Origin: Aurantiacibacter spongiae
GTDB taxonomy: Bacteria; Pseudomonadota; Alphaproteobacteria; Sphingomonadales; Sphingomonadaceae
Direction: 5' to 3'
NCBI RefSeq assembly: GCF_003815535.1
Contig: NZ_RPFZ01000001.1
Span: 1,674,001-1,738,000 of the forward strand
DNA length: 64,000 bases
The translations under genes and the position numbers were made by a program. The notes under the pieces were generated by a model. It saw only the letters and a list, made by a program, of their open reading frames with translations, had not been told where the DNA came from and searched no databases. Below are positions 32,193 through 39,860 of the stretch, in pieces. Numbering within the stretch: the stretch's first letter is position 1; each line of letters opens with the position of its first letter.

Positions 32193-32719
32193 TGCCCCGC
32201 CCGGCGCGGCGCGTCCAGTGCCGCCGGGCGCATGACCGCTCCAACCCTTGCGCGTGAGGATGGGTTCGATCGCGCGGGTTGCGACGGCGGACTTTTTTTC
32301 CGCAATTCGATTATGCCCCTTGCACCTCGCGCAAGCCGTGGAGAACCCACGCGTCGCACCGTGTTTGTGCCACCAGACACCCTGCTCCGGCGTTCCCGAT
32401 CGCGGTAAACCTGGCTTAACCCTCTTGCGCGCGAGTCGCACCTGATTCACTTTGGGTTGTGGTCGTCACTCGGGGTTCACCCACAAGACCTAGATTTGCG
32501 GGGCGTCGCCACCATCTTGGCGAGGTTGCCGAATCGACGTCGGGGAAGGTGCGGGAAAAGGCGGCTGTGGGCAGGCGGGGGATAAGTTTTCTCCTGCCGG
32601 CGCGTGGGGATCGCTAGGCTGGCACCGTCCGGCCGAATCGCAAGACCGCCACGGGCGCAAGGGATGGATCACGGGCCGGCGGCAAGCGCGCCGGGCCGAG
32701 GGAAACGGGGACGGGCACG
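32193..32719. other. Intergenic region upstream of nrdA
   Basis: About 530 bp without a convincing gene. The left part (to about 32440) is moderately AT-rich with an ATTCGA/TTCG-type sequence and no clear motif. At 32447-32496 lie two NrdR-like boxes. From there to the nrdA start is a leader of about 223 bases, GC-rich, with no ORF of note. No riboswitch core was recognised. Confidence 0.5.
32447..32496. promoter_or_regulatory. Pair of NrdR-like boxes upstream of nrdA
   Basis: Box 1 TCACTTTGGGTTGTGG (32447-32462) and box 2 CCACAAGACCTAGATT (32481-32496), start to start 34 bp. Both fit the NrdR pattern acaCwAtATaTwGtgt with degeneracy. The same two boxes, 12 of 16 bases identical each, recur upstream of nrdB at the same 34-bp spacing. 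NrdR is the ATP/dATP-sensing repressor of ribonucleotide reductase genes. It is not encoded in the window. Confidence 0.6.
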
Positions 32720-34762
32720 ATGGATTTTCGAGGCGGCAATGAAGGGGCGATGGCCGGCGGGACGGATACCGACGCCGGCGAGACGGTCGAGGATACCGCG
32801 GCGCCCCGCAACACCGATGACAAGGCAATGGCTATGGACAGGAAAGACGCAGGGACCGAGGCGCTGGTGGATGCCCCTTCGGCGGACGATGGCGGAGCGG
32901 CGCTGGCCGCGGCCGGAGCATTGGCGGAGGCGGCAAAGGCGGCGAAGAGCGATTCCAGGTCGGTCAATCCGCGCCGCTTCACGATTCGCACCGATCCGGC
33001 GCGCGACGCCAACCTGACCGAGTTCGGCAAGGCGACGCTCAACGATCGCTATCTGCTGCCGAACGAGACCTATCAGGATCTCTTCGCCCGGGTGGCCGAC
33101 GCCTACGCCGATGACGAGGCGCACGCACAGCGCATCTACGACTACATTTCGAACCTCTGGTTCATGCCGGCAACGCCCGTCCTGTCGAACGGCGGCACCG
33201 GGCGCGGTCTGCCGATCAGCTGCTATCTCAACAGCGTCGAGGACAGCCTCGAAGGCATCGTCGGCACCTGGAACGAGAATGTCTGGCTTGCCAGCAAGGG
33301 CGGCGGCATCGGCACCTACTGGGGCAATGTCCGCGGCATCGGCGAACCGGTGGGCCTGAATGGCAAGACCAGCGGCATCATCCCCTTCGTGCGGGTAATG
33401 GATTCGCTGACGCTGGCCATATCCCAAGGAAGCCTGAGGCGCGGTTCGGCGGCCTGCTATCTCGACGTGAGCCACCCGGAAATCGAGGAATTCCTCGAGA
33501 TCCGCAAGCCATCGGGCGACTTCAACCGCAAGGCGCTGAACCTGCATCACGGCGTGCTTCTGACCGATGAGTTCATGGAGGCCGTGCGCGCGGGCGAGAA
33601 GTTCGCGCTGAAAAGCCCGAAGGACGGCACGCAGCGCGGCGAGGTCGATGCGCGCAGCCTGTTCCAGAAGCTGGTCGAGACGCGGCTGGCGACGGGCGAG
33701 CCCTACATCGTGTTCTCGGACACGGTGAACCGCATGATGCCCAAGCATCACCGCGAGCTGGGGCTGAAGGTGTCGACCTCCAACCTGTGCTCGGAAATCA
33801 CCCTGCCGACCGGCATCGACCATCTCGGCAACGACCGCACGGCGGTATGCTGCCTGTCTTCGCTCAACCTCGAAAAGTGGGACGAGTGGAACGGCGACAA
33901 GCGCTTCGTGGAGGATGTCATGCGCTTCCTCGACAACGTGCTGCAGGACTATATCGACCGTGCGCCCGACGAGATGGCGCGCGCCAAGTACTCCGCCGCG
34001 CGCGAACGCAGCGTGGGCATGGGCGTGATGGGCTTCCACTCTTTCCTCCAGTCCAAGGGCATCGGCTTCGAAAGCCCGATGGCGAAGGTCTGGAACCTCA
34101 AGATGTTCAAGCACATCTCCGCCCGCGCGGAGGAAGCGAGCATGATGCTGGCGCATGAACGCGGCCCCTGCCCCGATGCCGAGGAAATGGGCGCGATGGA
34201 GCGCTTCTCCTGCAAGATGGCGATCGCGCCGACGGCCTCGATCTCCATCATCTGCGGCGGCACCAGCGCGTGCATCGAGCCGATCCCGGCCAACATCTAC
34301 ACCCACAAGACCCTCTCGGGCAGCTTCGTGGTCAAGAATCCATATCTGGAAAAGCTGCTCGACAAGAAGAGCAAGAACTCCACCAATGTGTGGAATTCGA
34401 TCCTCGAGAAGGGCGGCTCGGTCCAGCATCTCGATTTCCTGACCGCGGAGGAAAAGGCCGCGTACAAGACGAGCTTCGAGATCGACCAGCGCTGGCTGCT
34501 CGAATTCGCTGCCGACCGCACGCCGTTCATCGACCAGGCGCAGAGCCTCAACCTCTTCATCCCCGCAGATGTCGACAAGTGGGATCTGGCGATGCTGCAT
34601 TTCCAGGCATGGGAGAAAGGCGTCAAATCGCTCTATTACCTGCGCTCCAAGAGCGTGCAGCGTGCCGGTTTCGCCGGCGGGGTGGAGGCCGACAACACGG
34701 CCGACCCGGCGAAATACGAACTGCCGACCACCGATTACGACGAGTGTCTGGCCTGCCAGTAG
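32720..34762 (+). CDS. nrdA: Ribonucleoside-diphosphate reductase, class Ia alpha subunit
   Basis: Reduces ribonucleotides to deoxyribonucleotides with the radical subunit NrdB. Seen in the 680 residues: PISCYLNS with the redox Cys (about 178), STSNLCSEITLP with the thiyl-radical Cys and Glu, the second redox Cys in TAVCCLSSLNL, AIAPTASISIICGG, and a C-terminal C-x2-C (DECLACQ) that shuttles electrons. The protein lacks the N-terminal ATP-cone that sets overall activity in E. coli NrdA. Instead there is an Ala/Asp-rich low-complexity extension of about 80 residues before NPRRFTIRTD. ATG at 32720 is used; a shorter start inside the extension (Met about 37) is possible. Confidence 0.95.
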   Translation: MDFRGGNEGAMAGGTDTDAGETVEDTAAPRNTDDKAMAMDRKDAGTEALVDAPSADDGGAALAAAGALAEAAKAAKSDSRSVNPRRFTIRTDPARDANLTEFGKATLNDRYLLPNETYQDLFARVADAYADDEAHAQRIYDYISNLWFMPATPVLSNGGTGRGLPISCYLNSVEDSLEGIVGTWNENVWLASKGGGIGTYWGNVRGIGEPVGLNGKTSGIIPFVRVMDSLTLAISQGSLRRGSAACYLDVSHPEIEEFLEIRKPSGDFNRKALNLHHGVLLTDEFMEAVRAGEKFALKSPKDGTQRGEVDARSLFQKLVETRLATGEPYIVFSDTVNRMMPKHHRELGLKVSTSNLCSEITLPTGIDHLGNDRTAVCCLSSLNLEKWDEWNGDKRFVEDVMRFLDNVLQDYIDRAPDEMARAKYSAARERSVGMGVMGFHSFLQSKGIGFESPMAKVWNLKMFKHISARAEEASMMLAHERGPCPDAEEMGAMERFSCKMAIAPTASISIICGGTSACIEPIPANIYTHKTLSGSFVVKNPYLEKLLDKKSKNSTNVWNSILEKGGSVQHLDFLTAEEKAAYKTSFEIDQRWLLEFAADRTPFIDQAQSLNLFIPADVDKWDLAMLHFQAWEKGVKSLYYLRSKSVQRAGFAGGVEADNTADPAKYELPTTDYDECLACQ

Positions 34763-34789
34763 GCGCACGCGGGAGGGAGACGACGCATC

Positions 34790-34966
34790 ATGGGCATACC
34801 GGGACTGGTGGCGCTGGGCGTCGTCTTCGTCGCGCTCGGCTTCGTCTTCCGCAAGCGCGGGGCGGACAGGGCGGCGGCGCGCGCGGGAACGCTGACATTC
34901 GCCCTGTTCGAGCTGGCGGGCGCGCTGTTCCTGATCGCCGCGCTCATCACGGCGCTGCGCGGCTGA
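34790..34966 (+). CDS. Small two-helix membrane protein
   Basis: A 58-residue ORF with ATG at 34790 and a GGAGGGAG site 11 bases upstream. Two hydrophobic segments (PGLVALGVVFVALGFVF and TFALFELAGALFLIAALI) flank a basic loop with the pattern FRKRGADRA. It lies 27 bp after nrdA on the same strand and may be cotranscribed. The next short ORF has a similar helix-basic loop-helix layout. No family recognised. Confidence 0.6.
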   Translation: MGIPGLVALGVVFVALGFVFRKRGADRAAARAGTLTFALFELAGALFLIAALITALRG

Positions 34967-34970
34967 AACC

Positions 34971-35144
34971 CTGACCTATATCGTCGTCATCCTCGTGCTG
35001 ATGGCCGTCGTCCTGTTTCGGGCCGACCGAAAGCGGGCGGATACCGTCAATTCGGGTACGATGCGATGGTTCGCTCTCGGCCTTGCCGGGGCTGCGCTGC
35101 TGCTGGGAATAGTCACCCTGCTCGATCTCGCGCCGGCGATCTGA
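34971..35144 (+). CDS. Small two-helix membrane protein, possible paralogue of the preceding ORF
   Basis: An open frame 4 bp after the previous stop, ending in TGA at 35142-35144. Taking CTG at 34971 gives 57 residues with helix 1 (TYIVVILVLMAVVLF), basic loop RADRKRADT and helix 2 (WFALGLAGAALLLGIVTLL). A GTG at 34995 or ATG at 35001 would shorten helix 1. The same helix-basic loop-helix plan as the previous ORF suggests duplication. Start and reality are uncertain. Confidence 0.4.
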   Translation: MTYIVVILVLMAVVLFRADRKRADTVNSGTMRWFALGLAGAALLLGIVTLLDLAPAI

Positions 35145-35150
35145 CGTTGC

Positions 35151-35957
35151 CTATTCCAGGTGCTCCTGCGCGCGCACCGTTTCGGGGCGCTGGGGCAGGA
35201 CGATGACGAGGACGACGATGGCGAGGGCCAGCACGATGGAGGCGGCGAGGCGGCTGAGTTCGAGCCCGCCGCTGGCAACGGGCTTGTCGAGGAAATCGCC
35301 GACCACCGCGCCGAGCGGCCGGGTCAGGATGAAGGCCGACCAGAACAGCGCGACCCGGTTCGCCTTCGTAAAGCGATAGGCGACGGCCAGCGCGATGAGC
35401 GCGCCGCCGAAGATTTCCGCCGCGCCGAGATAGCCGAGCGGACCGTCTGCCACCCAATCGCCCAGCGCCGTGCCCAGCGTCTGCGAGAAGGTGATCGTCA
35501 GCCAGTAGAACAGTTCAGCGTCGCGCCGGTGGACCGATGCGGCGGAGATCGTGCCGATGGACCGGTGCCAGACGAACAGCGACATCAGCACCAGCGCGAA
35601 CAGCAGCGCCGATCCGCCAGGATAGCCGATGCCGAGCGAGCGTGTCGCGAAATCCGCCAGCGTCGTGCCGACCGTGGTGGACGCGATGATGGTCGCCCAG
35701 TAGAGCGCGGGGTGAAAGCGCGAGGCGCGCACCTGCTGAAAAGTGAAGAGCGCGAAGATCGCGCCGAAGATGGCGGTGCCCACGACATAGCCGTTGACGC
35801 CGGACTGGCCGGCGGTCGCGCTCGTCTCGCCCAGCCAGCTCATGCTGACGGTATCACCCATCGTCTCGCCGAAGGTGGTGGCAAGGATCTTCACGATCCA
35901 GAAGCCGAGTGTCACCGCCGGCACCTTGGCCAGCATTTCCCTTTCGTCCCGCGTCAT
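35151..35957 (-). CDS. COG4705-family membrane protein
   Basis: A 268-residue integral membrane protein with about eight helices. Four similar motifs recur: KILATTFGETMGDTVS, TTVGTTLADFATRSLG, SQTLGTALGDWVADG and TRPLGAVVGDFLDKP. Each has T-x-G/x-x-x-[GA]-D, so the protein looks like an internal fourfold repeat with one acidic residue in each repeat inside or at the membrane. This pattern is typical of COG4705, whose function is not established; ion or metal transport is a reasonable inference. ATG at 35957. Divergent from a membrane-bound LuxR-type regulator (107 bp between). Confidence 0.8.
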   Translation of the reverse strand: MTRDEREMLAKVPAVTLGFWIVKILATTFGETMGDTVSMSWLGETSATAGQSGVNGYVVGTAIFGAIFALFTFQQVRASRFHPALYWATIIASTTVGTTLADFATRSLGIGYPGGSALLFALVLMSLFVWHRSIGTISAASVHRRDAELFYWLTITFSQTLGTALGDWVADGPLGYLGAAEIFGGALIALAVAYRFTKANRVALFWSAFILTRPLGAVVGDFLDKPVASGGLELSRLAASIVLALAIVVLVIVLPQRPETVRAQEHLE

Positions 35958-36064
35958 GCGAAGGTCCTTCCGTCGGTACGGCGACGCCGTCGCAAAAGGA
36001 TTGGCCGGGGGCTGCGCAAAATCTATAAGCAGCGGCCGATGGAAAGCCGCATCAGCAATTGCGT

Positions 36065-36586
36065 ATGAACCTGTCAGGTGCGGATCGAGGCCGGCTGGAG
36101 ACGCAGCTGGGCGGCGCTGTCCTCATCGTCGCGGTGCAGGCCGTCGCGGCGATCTACTTCGTCGTGGACGGAATAGAGGACGTGCTGCCGCAACTGCGCA
36201 CCGGGCCGAGCGCCGAAGTGGTGATGGAAGGGCTGGTCGCGCTTGCCCTGCTTTTGGGGGTGGTGCTGGGCGCGCGGCACACCACGCGCGTTCTGCACGA
36301 GGCGCGTCACCGCGACAGCGCGCTCGATGCCGCACGCGGTGCGATGAGCGCGGTGATCGAACGGCATTTCCGCCAGTGGAACCTCTCGCCGGCGGAGGCG
36401 GAGGTCGCCCTGTTCGCGCTGAAGGGGAGCACCATCGCACAAATCGCCGCGATGCGCGGTGCAGCGCAGGGCACGGTGCGTTCGCAGCTCAGCCAGGTCT
36501 ACGCCAAGGCCGGGGTCCGGAACCAGTCTACGCTGGTGGCGATGTTCGTCGACGAACTGCTCGATCCGCTGGTGCCGGGGCAATAG
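36065..36586 (+). CDS. Membrane-anchored LuxR-type transcriptional regulator
   Basis: A 173-residue protein with two membrane helices at the N terminus (VLIVAVQAVAAIYFVV and LVALALLLGVVLGA) and a C-terminal LuxR/GerE helix-turn-helix (about 105-170). The HTH segment WNLSPAEAEVALFALKGSTIAQIAAMRGAAQGTVRSQLS has the usual pattern. There is no receiver or autoinducer domain, so the signal is probably sensed at the membrane. It faces the COG4705 transporter-like gene and may control it. ATG at 36065 chosen; a TTG at 36059 would add two residues. Confidence 0.82.
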   Translation: MNLSGADRGRLETQLGGAVLIVAVQAVAAIYFVVDGIEDVLPQLRTGPSAEVVMEGLVALALLLGVVLGARHTTRVLHEARHRDSALDAARGAMSAVIERHFRQWNLSPAEAEVALFALKGSTIAQIAAMRGAAQGTVRSQLSQVYAKAGVRNQSTLVAMFVDELLDPLVPGQ

Positions 36587-36595
36587 GCGCGAAAA

Positions 36596-36625
36596 ACCCC
36601 GGCCGCGCCTGTGGCGGGCCGGGGT
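36596..36625 (-). terminator. Terminator of the DUF2171 gene
   Basis: A 9-bp stem (ACCCCGGCC with GGCCGGGGT), loop of 12. On the minus strand it runs straight into TTTTTCG, a good intrinsic terminator 24 bp past the DUF2171 stop. It may also serve the LuxR-type gene on the plus strand. Confidence 0.75.
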
Positions 36626-36648
36626 CTGCCAAACGTCATGCGGGACGA

Positions 36649-36882
36649 TCAGGCGTTCGCGCCGCCCACGCCCGGAGGCACCGCCGCGCCGGCCTTCAGA
36701 TAGACACGGTTATCGTCGATCTTCTCGACGTCGTCGAGCTTCAGGTAGTGATGCAGGTCGTCCTTCGCATCGGACTTGGTCAGCTTGATCCGGTCGTCCT
36801 CGACCTCGTCGACGGTACCGACGTGCTGACCGTTGCTGTCGGCGACTTCCATGTGCTCCTTGATGCGCATCTTCTCGAACAT
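36649..36882 (-). CDS. DUF2171 protein
   Basis: A 77-residue cytosolic protein of the DUF2171 family, with MRIKEHMEVADSNGQHVGTV, VDEVEDDRIKLTKSD, HHYLKLDDVEKID and VYLKAGA. The fold is related to the PRC-barrel; family members are often stress-induced. ATG at 36882. It has its own terminator and an exact EcfG-type promoter 37 bp upstream, so it is almost certainly a stress-response gene. The Ala/Gly/Pro tail (AAVPPGVGGANA) is not conserved in pattern. Confidence 0.88.
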   Translation of the reverse strand: MFEKMRIKEHMEVADSNGQHVGTVDEVEDDRIKLTKSDAKDDLHHYLKLDDVEKIDDNRVYLKAGAAVPPGVGGANA

Positions 36883-36918
36883 TTGCGTTCTCCATCTGGT
36901 GTTGGGGTATGGCCTTCC

Positions 36919-36944
36919 AACGATGCCGGACCCCTGCGTGTTCC
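36919..36944 (-). promoter_or_regulatory. EcfG-type stress promoter, exact consensus
   Basis: On the minus strand GGAAC (36944-36940), 17 bp, CGTT (36922-36919), 37 bp before the DUF2171 ATG. Exact match to GGAAC-N17-CGTT. Confidence 0.75.
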
Positions 36945-37018
36945 GCGGATCGGGAGGGGGAGTTGCGTGTTCGCGGCAAACTGTGTCTTGCCATTGACAG
37001 CGGTGGGGCTAAGAACTG

Positions 37019-37035
37019 TTGCAATTGATTTGCAA
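37019..37035. promoter_or_regulatory. Fur-like box upstream of the PepSY-type gene
   Basis: TTGCAA-TTGAT-TTGCAA, a perfect inverted repeat with 5-bp spacer, 19 bp before the ATG. It resembles alphaproteobacterial Fur sites of the TTGC-x-A-T-x-A-T-T-x-GCAA type. The gene behind it belongs to a family often tied to iron uptake. Binding by Fur is inferred. Confidence 0.5.
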
Positions 37036-37054
37036 GAGCATCTGAAAGGCTTTC

Positions 37055-37444
37055 ATGCGCAAATGGCATCGCTGGCTCTCGCTCGTGTTCGGGATCGTGC
37101 TGGTTTTCGTAACCGTGACCGGGTTGCTGCACTACGTGGTCGCCTGGTGGCCCGCCGAGCCGCCCACCGCCGCCGCGCTGGCCGCGCGCGAGCCGCCCGC
37201 CGGATTCGTCTGCCCCGAAGGCTGGCGCTGCTCGCCGCCGCGGGGCAGGCCGGCACTCGGCATCGACCTTGGGTTTGTCCACCATCTCCATTCCGGCAGC
37301 GAGGGGGGCGTATGGGGCGAGATCGTGGTGATGCTTTCCGGCCTCGCGCTGCTGTTCTTCAGCGTTTCGGGCTTGTGGATGTATCTGCGCATGTGGCGCG
37401 CACGCCGCGCGAAGGGAAAGCGCCGCGGCCTGTTCTGGACCTAG
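37055..37444 (+). CDS. PepSY-associated membrane protein
   Basis: A 129-residue membrane protein. An N-terminal helix preceded by MRKWHRWLSLVFG, a periplasmic loop with two Cys (FVCPEGWRCSPP) and a second helix (IVVMLSGLALLFFSVSGLWMYLRMW) with a basic tail match the PepSY-TM family (PiuB-like), which contains iron-regulated inner-membrane proteins. At about 130 residues it is a short form with one PepSY-TM pair, versus 350-500 in full PiuB proteins. A Fur-like box lies just upstream, so iron regulation is likely. ATG at 37055. Confidence 0.78.
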   Translation: MRKWHRWLSLVFGIVLVFVTVTGLLHYVVAWWPAEPPTAAALAAREPPAGFVCPEGWRCSPPRGRPALGIDLGFVHHLHSGSEGGVWGEIVVMLSGLALLFFSVSGLWMYLRMWRARRAKGKRRGLFWT

Positions 37445-37500
37445 CGGCGGGGGTGCTGCGGTAATCGAACCTTAACCGTGCGCGCGTAACGGATAAGCCC

Positions 37501-37800
37501 ATGAGCAAGGCGCGCCCCACCGTTCCCACGCACCACGGCTATGGCGAGGTGCGCGTGTCGCGCTACTTCACGCTGTACCTCGCGCAGATCGCCTGGCTGG
37601 CGCTGGGCCTGTACCTCAATGCGATCGCCTACTGGCCCTCCACCTGCACGCCCGACAACATCATCGAAGCCTATGGCTGCTCGATGCGGCTGCCGGAAAA
37701 TGGCGGGTGGAGCGAGGCGGCGCTGCTCACCTGGATGTGGGCGACACCGATCCTTATCGCGCTGGAGATTTCGCGCCGCGTGGGCAAGAGCAAGGACTGA
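37501..37800 (+). CDS. Two-helix membrane protein of unknown function
   Basis: A 99-residue protein with two membrane helices (LYLAQIAWLALGLYLNAIAYW and AALLTWMWATPILIALEI) and two Cys in the loop between them (STCTPDNIIEAYGCSM) that could pair in the periplasm. The N terminus is basic and cytosolic. No family recognised. ATG at 37501. Convergent with the Ser/Gln-rich gene (31 bp). Confidence 0.6.
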   Translation: MSKARPTVPTHHGYGEVRVSRYFTLYLAQIAWLALGLYLNAIAYWPSTCTPDNIIEAYGCSMRLPENGGWSEAALLTWMWATPILIALEISRRVGKSKD

Positions 37801-37831
37801 AGGGCAGTCCTTGCCGCCGCCCCTTTGGGGG

Positions 37832-38446
37832 CTATTCCTTCAGCTTCTCCACGCGTTCCTCGGTCGCGCCGCCGTAGCCGCGCTCTTCCTCGTCTTCCTC
37901 GATCCTGTCGCTGGCGTCCGCGCTCCGATCGCGGCCCAGCCCCTTGTCGAGCGAGGAATCGTTTTGCGCCGCGGCCTGCGCCCGGCGTCTGTCCTCGTCG
38001 GCGGCGTCCTGGTGCATGTTGGTCGGGCTGTTGACCTCGTACTGGTCGTAGGTGGGTTTCGCCGCGCCGACATGGTTGTCCTTCGCCTGAGGCTGGTTGC
38101 CGGCGAGCGGACCTGTCTCGATATCGTTGTTGAGACCGGCACTGGCCTGAGGACGCGGCTCGCCATCTTGCGCTGCGGATGATGGCCCCTGCGACTGGCC
38201 CTGCGACTGTGACTGCGACTGCGAGCCCTGCGACTGCGACTGCGCGGACTGCTGCTTGGCCTGATCCATCATGTCGCCCTTGCGCACGGGCGGATGCTTC
38301 TGCTGGTCTCGCGGAGCGTGATCGGGTTCGCCGCTGGCCGTGCGGCGCGCCTCGTCCTCCTGCGGGCCGGTGCGCTTGATGCCGCCGGGCTCGTGCCCCG
38401 GCTTCAGGGTGACGTCGCGGCTGTCTTCGGGTTCGTATTCGCCCAT
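37832..38446 (-). CDS. Hydrophilic protein with Ser-Gln repeat tract
   Basis: A 204-residue, highly charged protein with no hydrophobic segment. The middle has a QSQSQGSQSQSQSQGQSQG tract, encoded by nearly perfect 6-base repeats at about 38196-38243. The N-terminal part is Glu/Asp/Arg-rich (DVTLKPGHEPGGIKRTGPQ) and the C terminus ends EERVEKLKE. Intrinsic disorder is likely. ATG at 38446 has an AGGAGG site. An exact EcfG-type promoter lies 34 bp upstream on the same strand, so the gene belongs to the stress set. Function unknown; desiccation-type hydrophilin is one speculative idea. Confidence 0.7.
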   Translation of the reverse strand: MGEYEPEDSRDVTLKPGHEPGGIKRTGPQEDEARRTASGEPDHAPRDQQKHPPVRKGDMMDQAKQQSAQSQSQGSQSQSQSQGQSQGPSSAAQDGEPRPQASAGLNNDIETGPLAGNQPQAKDNHVGAAKPTYDQYEVNSPTNMHQDAADEDRRRAQAAAQNDSSLDKGLGRDRSADASDRIEEDEEERGYGGATEERVEKLKE

Positions 38447-38479
38447 GATGGGCCTCCTTGTGTATCCTCTTGCAGCGTC

Positions 38480-38505
38480 AACGGCCCGTGCCCCCCGCGC
38501 GTTCC
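38480..38505 (-). promoter_or_regulatory. EcfG-type stress promoter, exact consensus
   Basis: On the minus strand GGAAC (38505-38501), 17 bp, CGTT (38483-38480), 34 bp before the ATG of the Ser/Gln-rich gene. Exact match to GGAAC-N17-CGTT. Confidence 0.72.
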
Positions 38506-38724
38506 GCCGGCAGGCTCCGCCCCGGGCGCGCCGGTGGCCGTTTCGGGCCGGGCCGTTGACCTGGGGCGACGGGTCGCCCCTCGCAGGCGGGCGAGGCGGT
38601 GTCGCTCATCCGACACAGGCCGCATGGCGTCTTATCCACGCCGAATCATCCCCTCTTGTCTCCAAAAGGCGCGCATGATTCACTATATGAGTCGCTCGCG
38701 TTCCGATGGGAGGAAGGCATCGCG

Positions 38725-38774
38725 CCACTATCGGTAGTGGCGTATCCTGCCCGGTCTTCCACAACATATTGATT
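38725..38774. promoter_or_regulatory. Pair of NrdR-like boxes upstream of nrdB
   Basis: Box 1 CCACTATCGGTAGTGG (38725-38740), with perfect 6-bp inverted arms, and box 2 CCACAACATATTGATT (38759-38774), core CAACATATTG fitting CwAtATaTwG. Start-to-start 34 bp, as before nrdA. Box 2 ends 21 bp before the nrdB ATG, so it probably overlaps or follows the transcription start. Confidence 0.68.
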
Positions 38775-38795: not shown

Positions 38796-39860
38796 ATGTC
38801 CCTCCTCGAAGCCCGCAAGACCTACAAGCCGTTCGAATATCCGTGGGCCTACGAATTCTGGAAGCGCCAGCAGCAGATCCACTGGATGCCGGAAGAGGTG
38901 CCGCTGGGGGAGGATTGCCGCGACTGGGCGCAGAACCTGACCGATCATGAGCGCAACCTGCTCACCCAGATCTTCCGCTTCTTCACCCAGGCCGATGTCG
39001 AGGTGCAGGATTGCTACCACGAGAAATACGGCCGCGTGTTCAAGCCCACCGAGGTCAAGATGATGCTGGCCGCGTTCAGCAACATGGAGACGGTGCACAT
39101 CGCCGCCTATTCGCATCTGCTCGACACGATCGGCATGCCCGAGAGCGAATACGGCATGTTCCTCGAATATGCGGAGATGAAGGACAAGCACGACTATCTT
39201 CAGGATTTCGGTGTCGAGACGGACGAGGACATCGCCCGCACGCTCGCCATGTTCGGCGGCTTCACCGAAGGGCTGCAGCTGTTCGCCAGCTTCGCCATGC
39301 TGATGAACTTCCCGCGCTTCAACAAGATGAAGGGGATGGGCCAGATCGTCAGCTGGTCGGTGCGCGACGAATCGCTGCACTGCGAAGGCATCACCCGCCT
39401 GTTCCACGCCTTCACCAGGGAACGCGACTGCCTGACCAAGGCGGTGAAGGAAGACATCATGGACATGTGCCAGAAGACCGTCCGGCTGGAGGACGCCTTC
39501 ATCGACCTGGCCTTCGAGCAGGGGCCCGTGCCCGGCATGACGGCGAAGGAGATCAAGAAGTACATCCGCTACATCGCCGACTGGCGGCTGTCGCAGCTGG
39601 GCCTGCCCAGCATCTACATGGTCGAGGACCACCCGCTGCCCTGGCTCGCGCCGCTGCTGAACGGCGTGGAGCACGCCAACTTCTTCGAAACCCGCGCCAC
39701 CGAATATTCCAAGGGCGCCACGCGCGGCAACTGGCAGGACGTGTGGTCCAGCTTCGACAAGCGCCAGAAAGCCAAGGCCGCGAACGAGGAAGAGTCCGAG
39801 GACGACGCCCCCGGCCTGTTCGGCGAAAGCAAGGATGGCGGGGTGCAGGCGGCGGAATGA
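38796..39860 (+). CDS. nrdB: Ribonucleoside-diphosphate reductase, class Ia beta subunit
   Basis: Supplies the tyrosyl radical for NrdA from a di-iron centre. In 354 residues the metal ligands are visible: Asp67 (QADVEVQD), Glu98 and His101 (SNMETVHIAAYSH), and Glu/His in VRDESLHCEG; the radical Tyr is Tyr105. The C terminus is acidic and ends in a short flexible tail for docking to NrdA. The protein has no ATP-cone, so with NrdA also lacking one this reductase has no obvious overall activity switch. ATG at 38796. The stop overlaps the start of the foreign gene as ATGA. Confidence 0.95.
   Translation: MSLLEARKTYKPFEYPWAYEFWKRQQQIHWMPEEVPLGEDCRDWAQNLTDHERNLLTQIFRFFTQADVEVQDCYHEKYGRVFKPTEVKMMLAAFSNMETVHIAAYSHLLDTIGMPESEYGMFLEYAEMKDKHDYLQDFGVETDEDIARTLAMFGGFTEGLQLFASFAMLMNFPRFNKMKGMGQIVSWSVRDESLHCEGITRLFHAFTRERDCLTKAVKEDIMDMCQKTVRLEDAFIDLAFEQGPVPGMTAKEIKKYIRYIADWRLSQLGLPSIYMVEDHPLPWLAPLLNGVEHANFFETRATEYSKGATRGNWQDVWSSFDKRQKAKAANEEESEDDAPGLFGESKDGGVQAAE

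Follow-up and report, generated by a model that had tools for sequence, protein, structure and literature searches.

Candidate NrdR operators with a long box spacing at the separated nrdA and nrdB genes of an Aurantiacibacter genome

Introduction

The genes nrdA and nrdB, which code for the large and small subunits of class I RNR, lie 4033 bp apart in the 64-kb stretch of Aurantiacibacter spongiae DNA analyzed here (the window). An earlier note, made from the sequence by itself, had placed them about 4 kb apart and had called a pair of boxes upstream of each, with an identical start-to-start offset of 34 bp and with 12 of 16 positions identical for each pair; all of this is exact (Table 1). 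The locus hence raises two questions: whether these boxes are operators of the regulator NrdR, and how two separate transcription units came to have the same long offset. We consider it highly probable (roughly 0.85) that the four boxes constitute two NrdR operators, which would jointly repress nrdA and nrdB, the former operator being ancestral and the latter rebuilt in this lineage.

Few regulons of the Proteobacteria are as well conserved as the control of RNR genes by NrdR, for which 186 regulons in 20 groups have been reconstructed; the accessible text gives neither box spacings nor a list of Sphingomonadales sites (PMC5343134). Our literature search found no paper on NrdR in Sphingomonas.

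Table 1. Genes, promoters and predicted NrdR boxes in the window
Feature	Positions	Strand	Description
Likely nrdA core promoter	32425-32453	+	TTGCGC 32425-32430, 17-bp gap, CACTTT 32448-32453
nrdA NrdR box 1 (predicted)	32447-32462	+	TCACTTTGGGTTGTGG; overlaps -10; C4/G13 present; box kept by nearly all congeners
nrdA NrdR box 2 (predicted)	32481-32496	+	CCACAAGACCTAGATT; right half degenerate; C4/G13 present
nrdA	32720-34762	+	ATG 32720; class I RNR large subunit, 680 aa; NCBIfam NF006577, 1038 bits
Inherited nrdB promoter region	38632-38695	+	Matches DNA just upstream of relatives' nrdB, e.g. L110, L012, L016
Relic of old Shine-Dalgarno	38708-38717	+	GGGAGGAAGG; promoter offset same as that of AGAGGA in G036/L110
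nrdB NrdR box 1 (predicted)	38725-38740	+	CCACTATCGGTAGTGG; perfect half-sites
nrdB NrdR box 2 (predicted)	38759-38774	+	CCACAACATATTGATT
nrdB	38796-39860	+	ATG 38796; class I RNR small subunit; NCBIfam NF007186, 586 bits

Results

Two pairs of palindromic boxes and an NrdR protein

Both predicted operators are characterized by two 16-bp palindromic boxes with an 18-bp spacer between them. C4 and G13 are present in all four boxes, which bears out the claim that they fit the NrdR consensus; these pairs matter for NrdR binding, having been studied as fragment positions 9/18 and 40/49 (PMC9110341), with the conversion to 16-mer numbering being our own reading. Box 2 has a degenerate right half at nrdB as well as at nrdA, and the nrdA box 1 has a T in place of the usual A at position 6. 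The spacers, TCGTCACTCGGGGTTCAC at nrdA and CGTATCCTGCCCGGTCTT at nrdB, are without similarity, hence the two operators are not one copied block. A derivation of the nrdB operator by copying from that of nrdA was likewise ruled out, since both spacers and flanks are unrelated.

The reading in the earlier note presupposed an NrdR protein, and the genome encodes one: it has a zinc ribbon (PF22811, 75 bits), and the ATP-cone (PF03477) and NCBIfam TIGR00244 models match above their cut-offs. Its relatives in the PDB are NrdR structures, including 7p37 from S. coelicolor. In the latter protein D15 and R17 contact bases of the box (PMC9110341), and the translated start of the protein studied here, MRCPYCANDNSQVKDSR, also has D and R at positions 15 and 17. 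The linker between zinc ribbon and ATP-cone is equal in length to that of E. coli NrdR. The ATP-cone hairpin features a five-residue insertion, KSDADGSGARRE, which varies within the genus. The structure of NrdR was ruled out as the cause of the spacing, because congeners with and without this insertion have the 34-bp nrdA spacing.

The NrdA protein matches only PF00317 and PF02867 (the all-alpha and barrel domains) in Pfam, with no Pfam match to an ATP-cone; the sensing of dATP in the RNR pathway may hence fall mainly to NrdR. The solved structures nearest to NrdA are 6dqw and 6dqx.

The pairs in scans of the genome, the window and relatives

When up to 3 mismatches are allowed, a combined pair pattern matches only the nrdA and nrdB sites in the whole 2.86-Mb genome, and its reversed control has 0 matches. 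As this pattern was derived from the two sites themselves it is circular, and a 16-bp weight matrix was therefore built instead from the nrdA operators of relatives, using no nrdB site and omitting box 1 of the window's own nrdA; the sequence of the window's nrdA box 2 was left in because it is common to the relatives. In the 64-kb window the matrix ranks the nrdB pair first (31.6) and the nrdA pair second (26.6), and every remaining pair either reuses one of the four boxes or scores at most 10.7. Over 1.54 Mb of relatives' loci it yields 87 matches scoring above 14, almost all upstream of nrdA or nrdB (L003:11647 being a clear exception), and pairs of 31.6 quality are seen there only at nrdA. 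The strict palindrome CACWANNNNTWGTG has a single match in the genome, which is nrdB box 1 (10 for the reversed control pattern).

The nrdA operator across the family

The named genomes and congeners furnished 75 distinct nrdA upstream regions with the operator. A promoter of the form CTTGCG-N17-CACTAT is kept in most relatives, with box 1 overlapping its -10, and box 2 is kept as C(C/T)AC(A/T)AGACCTAG(A/T)T. Conservation of the pair at nrdA, a check suggested in the earlier note, extends across the family, and 72/75 operators retain C4/G13 in each of their two boxes. The best spacing is 34 bp in 49/75, 32 bp in 14/75 and 33 bp in 8/75: the 34-bp form is spread over the greater part of the window's genus and recurs elsewhere in the Erythrobacteraceae, and the operators of Novosphingobium and Sphingomonas mostly have 32-33 bp. 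From these comparisons we infer that the nrdA operator is probably ancestral to the family. A contracted box 1 considered for Qipengyuania-type genomes was dropped, since reading it as ATTCACTATCTAGTGG restores both C4/G13 and the 34-bp spacing. Two relatives (L013 and L025) have lost the usual promoter upstream of nrdA; AT-rich DNA containing small ORFs stands in its place, and this replacement DNA again has NrdR-like box pairs.

A displaced nrdB start and a new leader

The window's nrdB start, MSLLEARKTYKP, was aligned with those of relatives. The promoter region inherited at this gene contains a DnaA-box-like element (TTATCCACG), GANTC at 38643, 38677 and 38689, TATATG at 38684-38689 and a weak box, TCACTATATGAGTCGC, at 38680-38695. 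In G036/L110 the AGAGGA that corresponds to the Shine-Dalgarno relic is followed by CCACCAC-ATG, and the old start of nrdB would have come after the relic in the window. The present start codon lies ~75 bp farther downstream than that of relatives, and the box pair is contained in the new leader, downstream of the inherited promoter.

Most relatives are without this pair, and the complete version was seen in no other genome examined, congeners included. Hence, the shared layout that the earlier note had proposed does not extend to the nrdB genes of the examined congeners, most of which have another promoter and a box straddling the start. The conserved promoter of the relatives features TTATCCCCG, TTGCTATCGAATC and GATTCCCTATATAGG with the start codon close behind, and an NrdR-like box at -7 straddles the start, typically as CCACAAG-ATG-TCGTTG or ATACCAG-ATG-TCGTTG. 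Of 101 distinct nrdB upstream regions, 61% score higher under the nrdA-trained pair model than the 95th percentile of 397 control gene starts, the relatives scored not being independent samples; box 2 of the best pairs is mostly at -7, and C at -4 of the start is kept in 67/73. The upstream partner of the straddling box is weak and its spacing preference modest; a full two-box nrdB operator in relatives was accordingly dropped as a candidate, with only the start-straddling box being strong. It is suggestive that a 14-bp contracted box prefers 34 bp in 21/73.

The nrdB start is also displaced in G015 (L087), A. luteus (L016) and Parapontixanthobacter (L009), where traces of the former start and of its box persist upstream. 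A box resembling nrdB box 2 is present at -38/-39 in G015 and in Parapontixanthobacter (L009/L188). Among 397 family genomes, a sample that does not include G015, the window and Parapontixanthobacter are the only ones with the nrdB box 2 motif at nrdB; there are six other matches, several of them in one conserved sequence context, and none is near an nrdB gene. Trees of nrdA and nrdB were too poorly resolved to order these events. In G015 and A. luteus the old first codons of nrdB form a short TAG-ended ORF (MSLLEARQTD* and MWLPVARKTH*, respectively) and the NrdR-like box is kept.

In nearly all relatives nrdA lies upstream of nrdB on the same strand, at a distance of 52-7830 bp. The nrdB operator is weaker where this distance is below 700 bp (medians -6.8 vs 3.1, p 0.001, ignoring relatedness), which fits the idea that an NrdR site at nrdB is needed only where this gene forms a unit apart from nrdA. 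In the window, the intervening DNA (34790-38446) codes for a DUF347 protein, a LuxR-type HTH protein, a DUF2171 protein and a PepSY-TM protein.

Discussion

The 34-bp offset and the spacing rule

Well-studied NrdR operators, such as those of nrdHIEF, nrdDG and nrdAB in E. coli and of nrdRJ and nrdAB in S. coelicolor, likewise feature two 16-bp palindromic boxes with C4/G13 over or near the promoter, bound by a protein that combines a Zn ribbon with an ATP-cone as in the window's NrdR (PMC9110341, PMC12176259). The window differs from both organisms in that nrdA and nrdB each form a unit of their own with a predicted operator, and in its spacer, which is 18 bp against 15-16 bp. The three-helix-turn spacing typical of NrdR operators (31-32 bp) is therefore departed from at both window operators. 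The earlier note was right that 34 bp exceeds the E. coli values, as it does those of Streptomyces, but within the family this is the normal spacing at nrdA.

A natural departure from 15-16 bp is also known in S. pneumoniae, whose operators have 25-26-bp spacers (PMC12051234); three-turn spacing is for this reason a typical rather than a strictly defining feature. In S. pneumoniae one full helix turn is added and the phase is kept, whereas in the window the addition is ~2-3 bp, a quarter turn. With an 18-bp spacer, the measured K_D is 3 nM for Listeria NrdR (LmoNrdR; best 1), 66 nM for E. coli NrdR (EcoNrdR; 45 at 17 bp), 476 nM for that of S. coelicolor (best 21) and 6603 nM for that of S. 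pneumoniae (best 41); the first two proteins thus bind such a spacer well in vitro and the other two poorly, and in E. coli cells spacers of 18-24 bp are derepressed (PMC12051234). Taken together, these in vitro values and the in vivo range mark 34 bp as a borderline spacing that still falls within what is known. We offer only tentatively the idea that in this family the geometry favored by NrdR has moved to 34 bp (~3.25 turns), a spacing maintained at nrdA in tens of species and recreated independently at nrdB upon loss of the old operator there, so that the three-turn rule would be tunable by lineage.

A model for joint repression and its alternatives

Going by the known mechanism of NrdR (PMC9110341), the protein would bind and repress at both genes as follows: when dATP is plentiful, the ATP/dATP-loaded tetramer would occupy the two boxes of an operator together and bend the DNA, thereby blocking transcription. 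With NrdR at both operators, nrdA and nrdB would be repressed together despite being separate transcription units, and it is a reasonable inference that the shared operators keep the NrdA and NrdB subunits balanced. At nrdA, where the operator would have settled on an 18-bp spacer, box 1 would cover the likely -10 and box 2 would lie ~20-35 bp downstream of the likely transcription start. At nrdB, the start codon would have moved ~75 bp downstream in the window's lineage, and a new pair would then have arisen in the new leader in the same 34-bp register, restoring co-regulation. If the inherited promoter still drives nrdB, both boxes would lie downstream of the transcription start and could act only as a roadblock.

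This last point lends some substance to an alternative that we regard as unlikely, namely that only the nrdA pair is a working operator, with the nrdB pair weak or inactive and the gene run by its inherited promoter with the DnaA-like box and GANTC. The position of the pair downstream of that promoter and its lack of conservation are the grounds for this view: the congeners do without it, and the inherited promoter is still recognizable in the window. Nevertheless, the nrdB pair is the top-scoring one in the window, its box 1 has perfect half-sites and all C4/G13 are present, and in the 1.54 Mb of relatives' loci pairs of this quality lie only at nrdA. It is much less probable still that the boxes bind another regulator common to both genes, such as a cell-cycle regulator, their likeness to NrdR sites being coincidental. 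While GANTC adjoins nrdA box 1 and recurs in the nrdB promoter, and DnaA-box-like motifs (TTATCCCC/TTATCCACG) occur at both genes, the boxes display the signature of NrdR, a palindromic CAC(A/T)A-N4-T(A/T)GTG with C4/G13 in two copies about three turns apart, and the two relatives with replaced nrdA upstream DNA carry NrdR-like pairs anew.

That two unrelated palindrome pairs were merely spotted after the fact is scarcely credible: the motif was indeed picked post hoc by the reader and the relatives are not independent samples, but the nrdA pair is kept in tens of genomes and a matrix trained without nrdB sites ranks the nrdB pair first. We therefore favor joint control by NrdR: a real, if predicted, pair of NrdR operators, ordinary in kind, in which the long spacing appears to be family-wide and the rebuilding at nrdB lineage-specific.

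NrdR is a proposed antibacterial target, and the measurements behind its DNA spacing rule come from just four proteins; the retention of an 18-bp spacer by a whole family constitutes a natural test of this rule. The displaced nrdB start illustrates how a co-regulation site at an essential gene may be lost and rebuilt.

Other sites in the two upstream regions

Beyond the NrdR boxes, DnaA-box-like elements occur in the nrdA leader (TTATCCCCC, 32577-32585, minus strand) and upstream of nrdB (TTATCCACG, 38632-38640, plus strand), and TTATCCCC is kept upstream of nrdB in many relatives; this suggests that DnaA may control both genes. Our literature search found no paper on nrdA or nrdB with CcrM sites. 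GANTC (CcrM) sites are clustered in both promoters (32433-32448; 38643-38647 and 38677-38693), and the GATTC adjoining the nrdA -10 is kept in Erythrobacteraceae.
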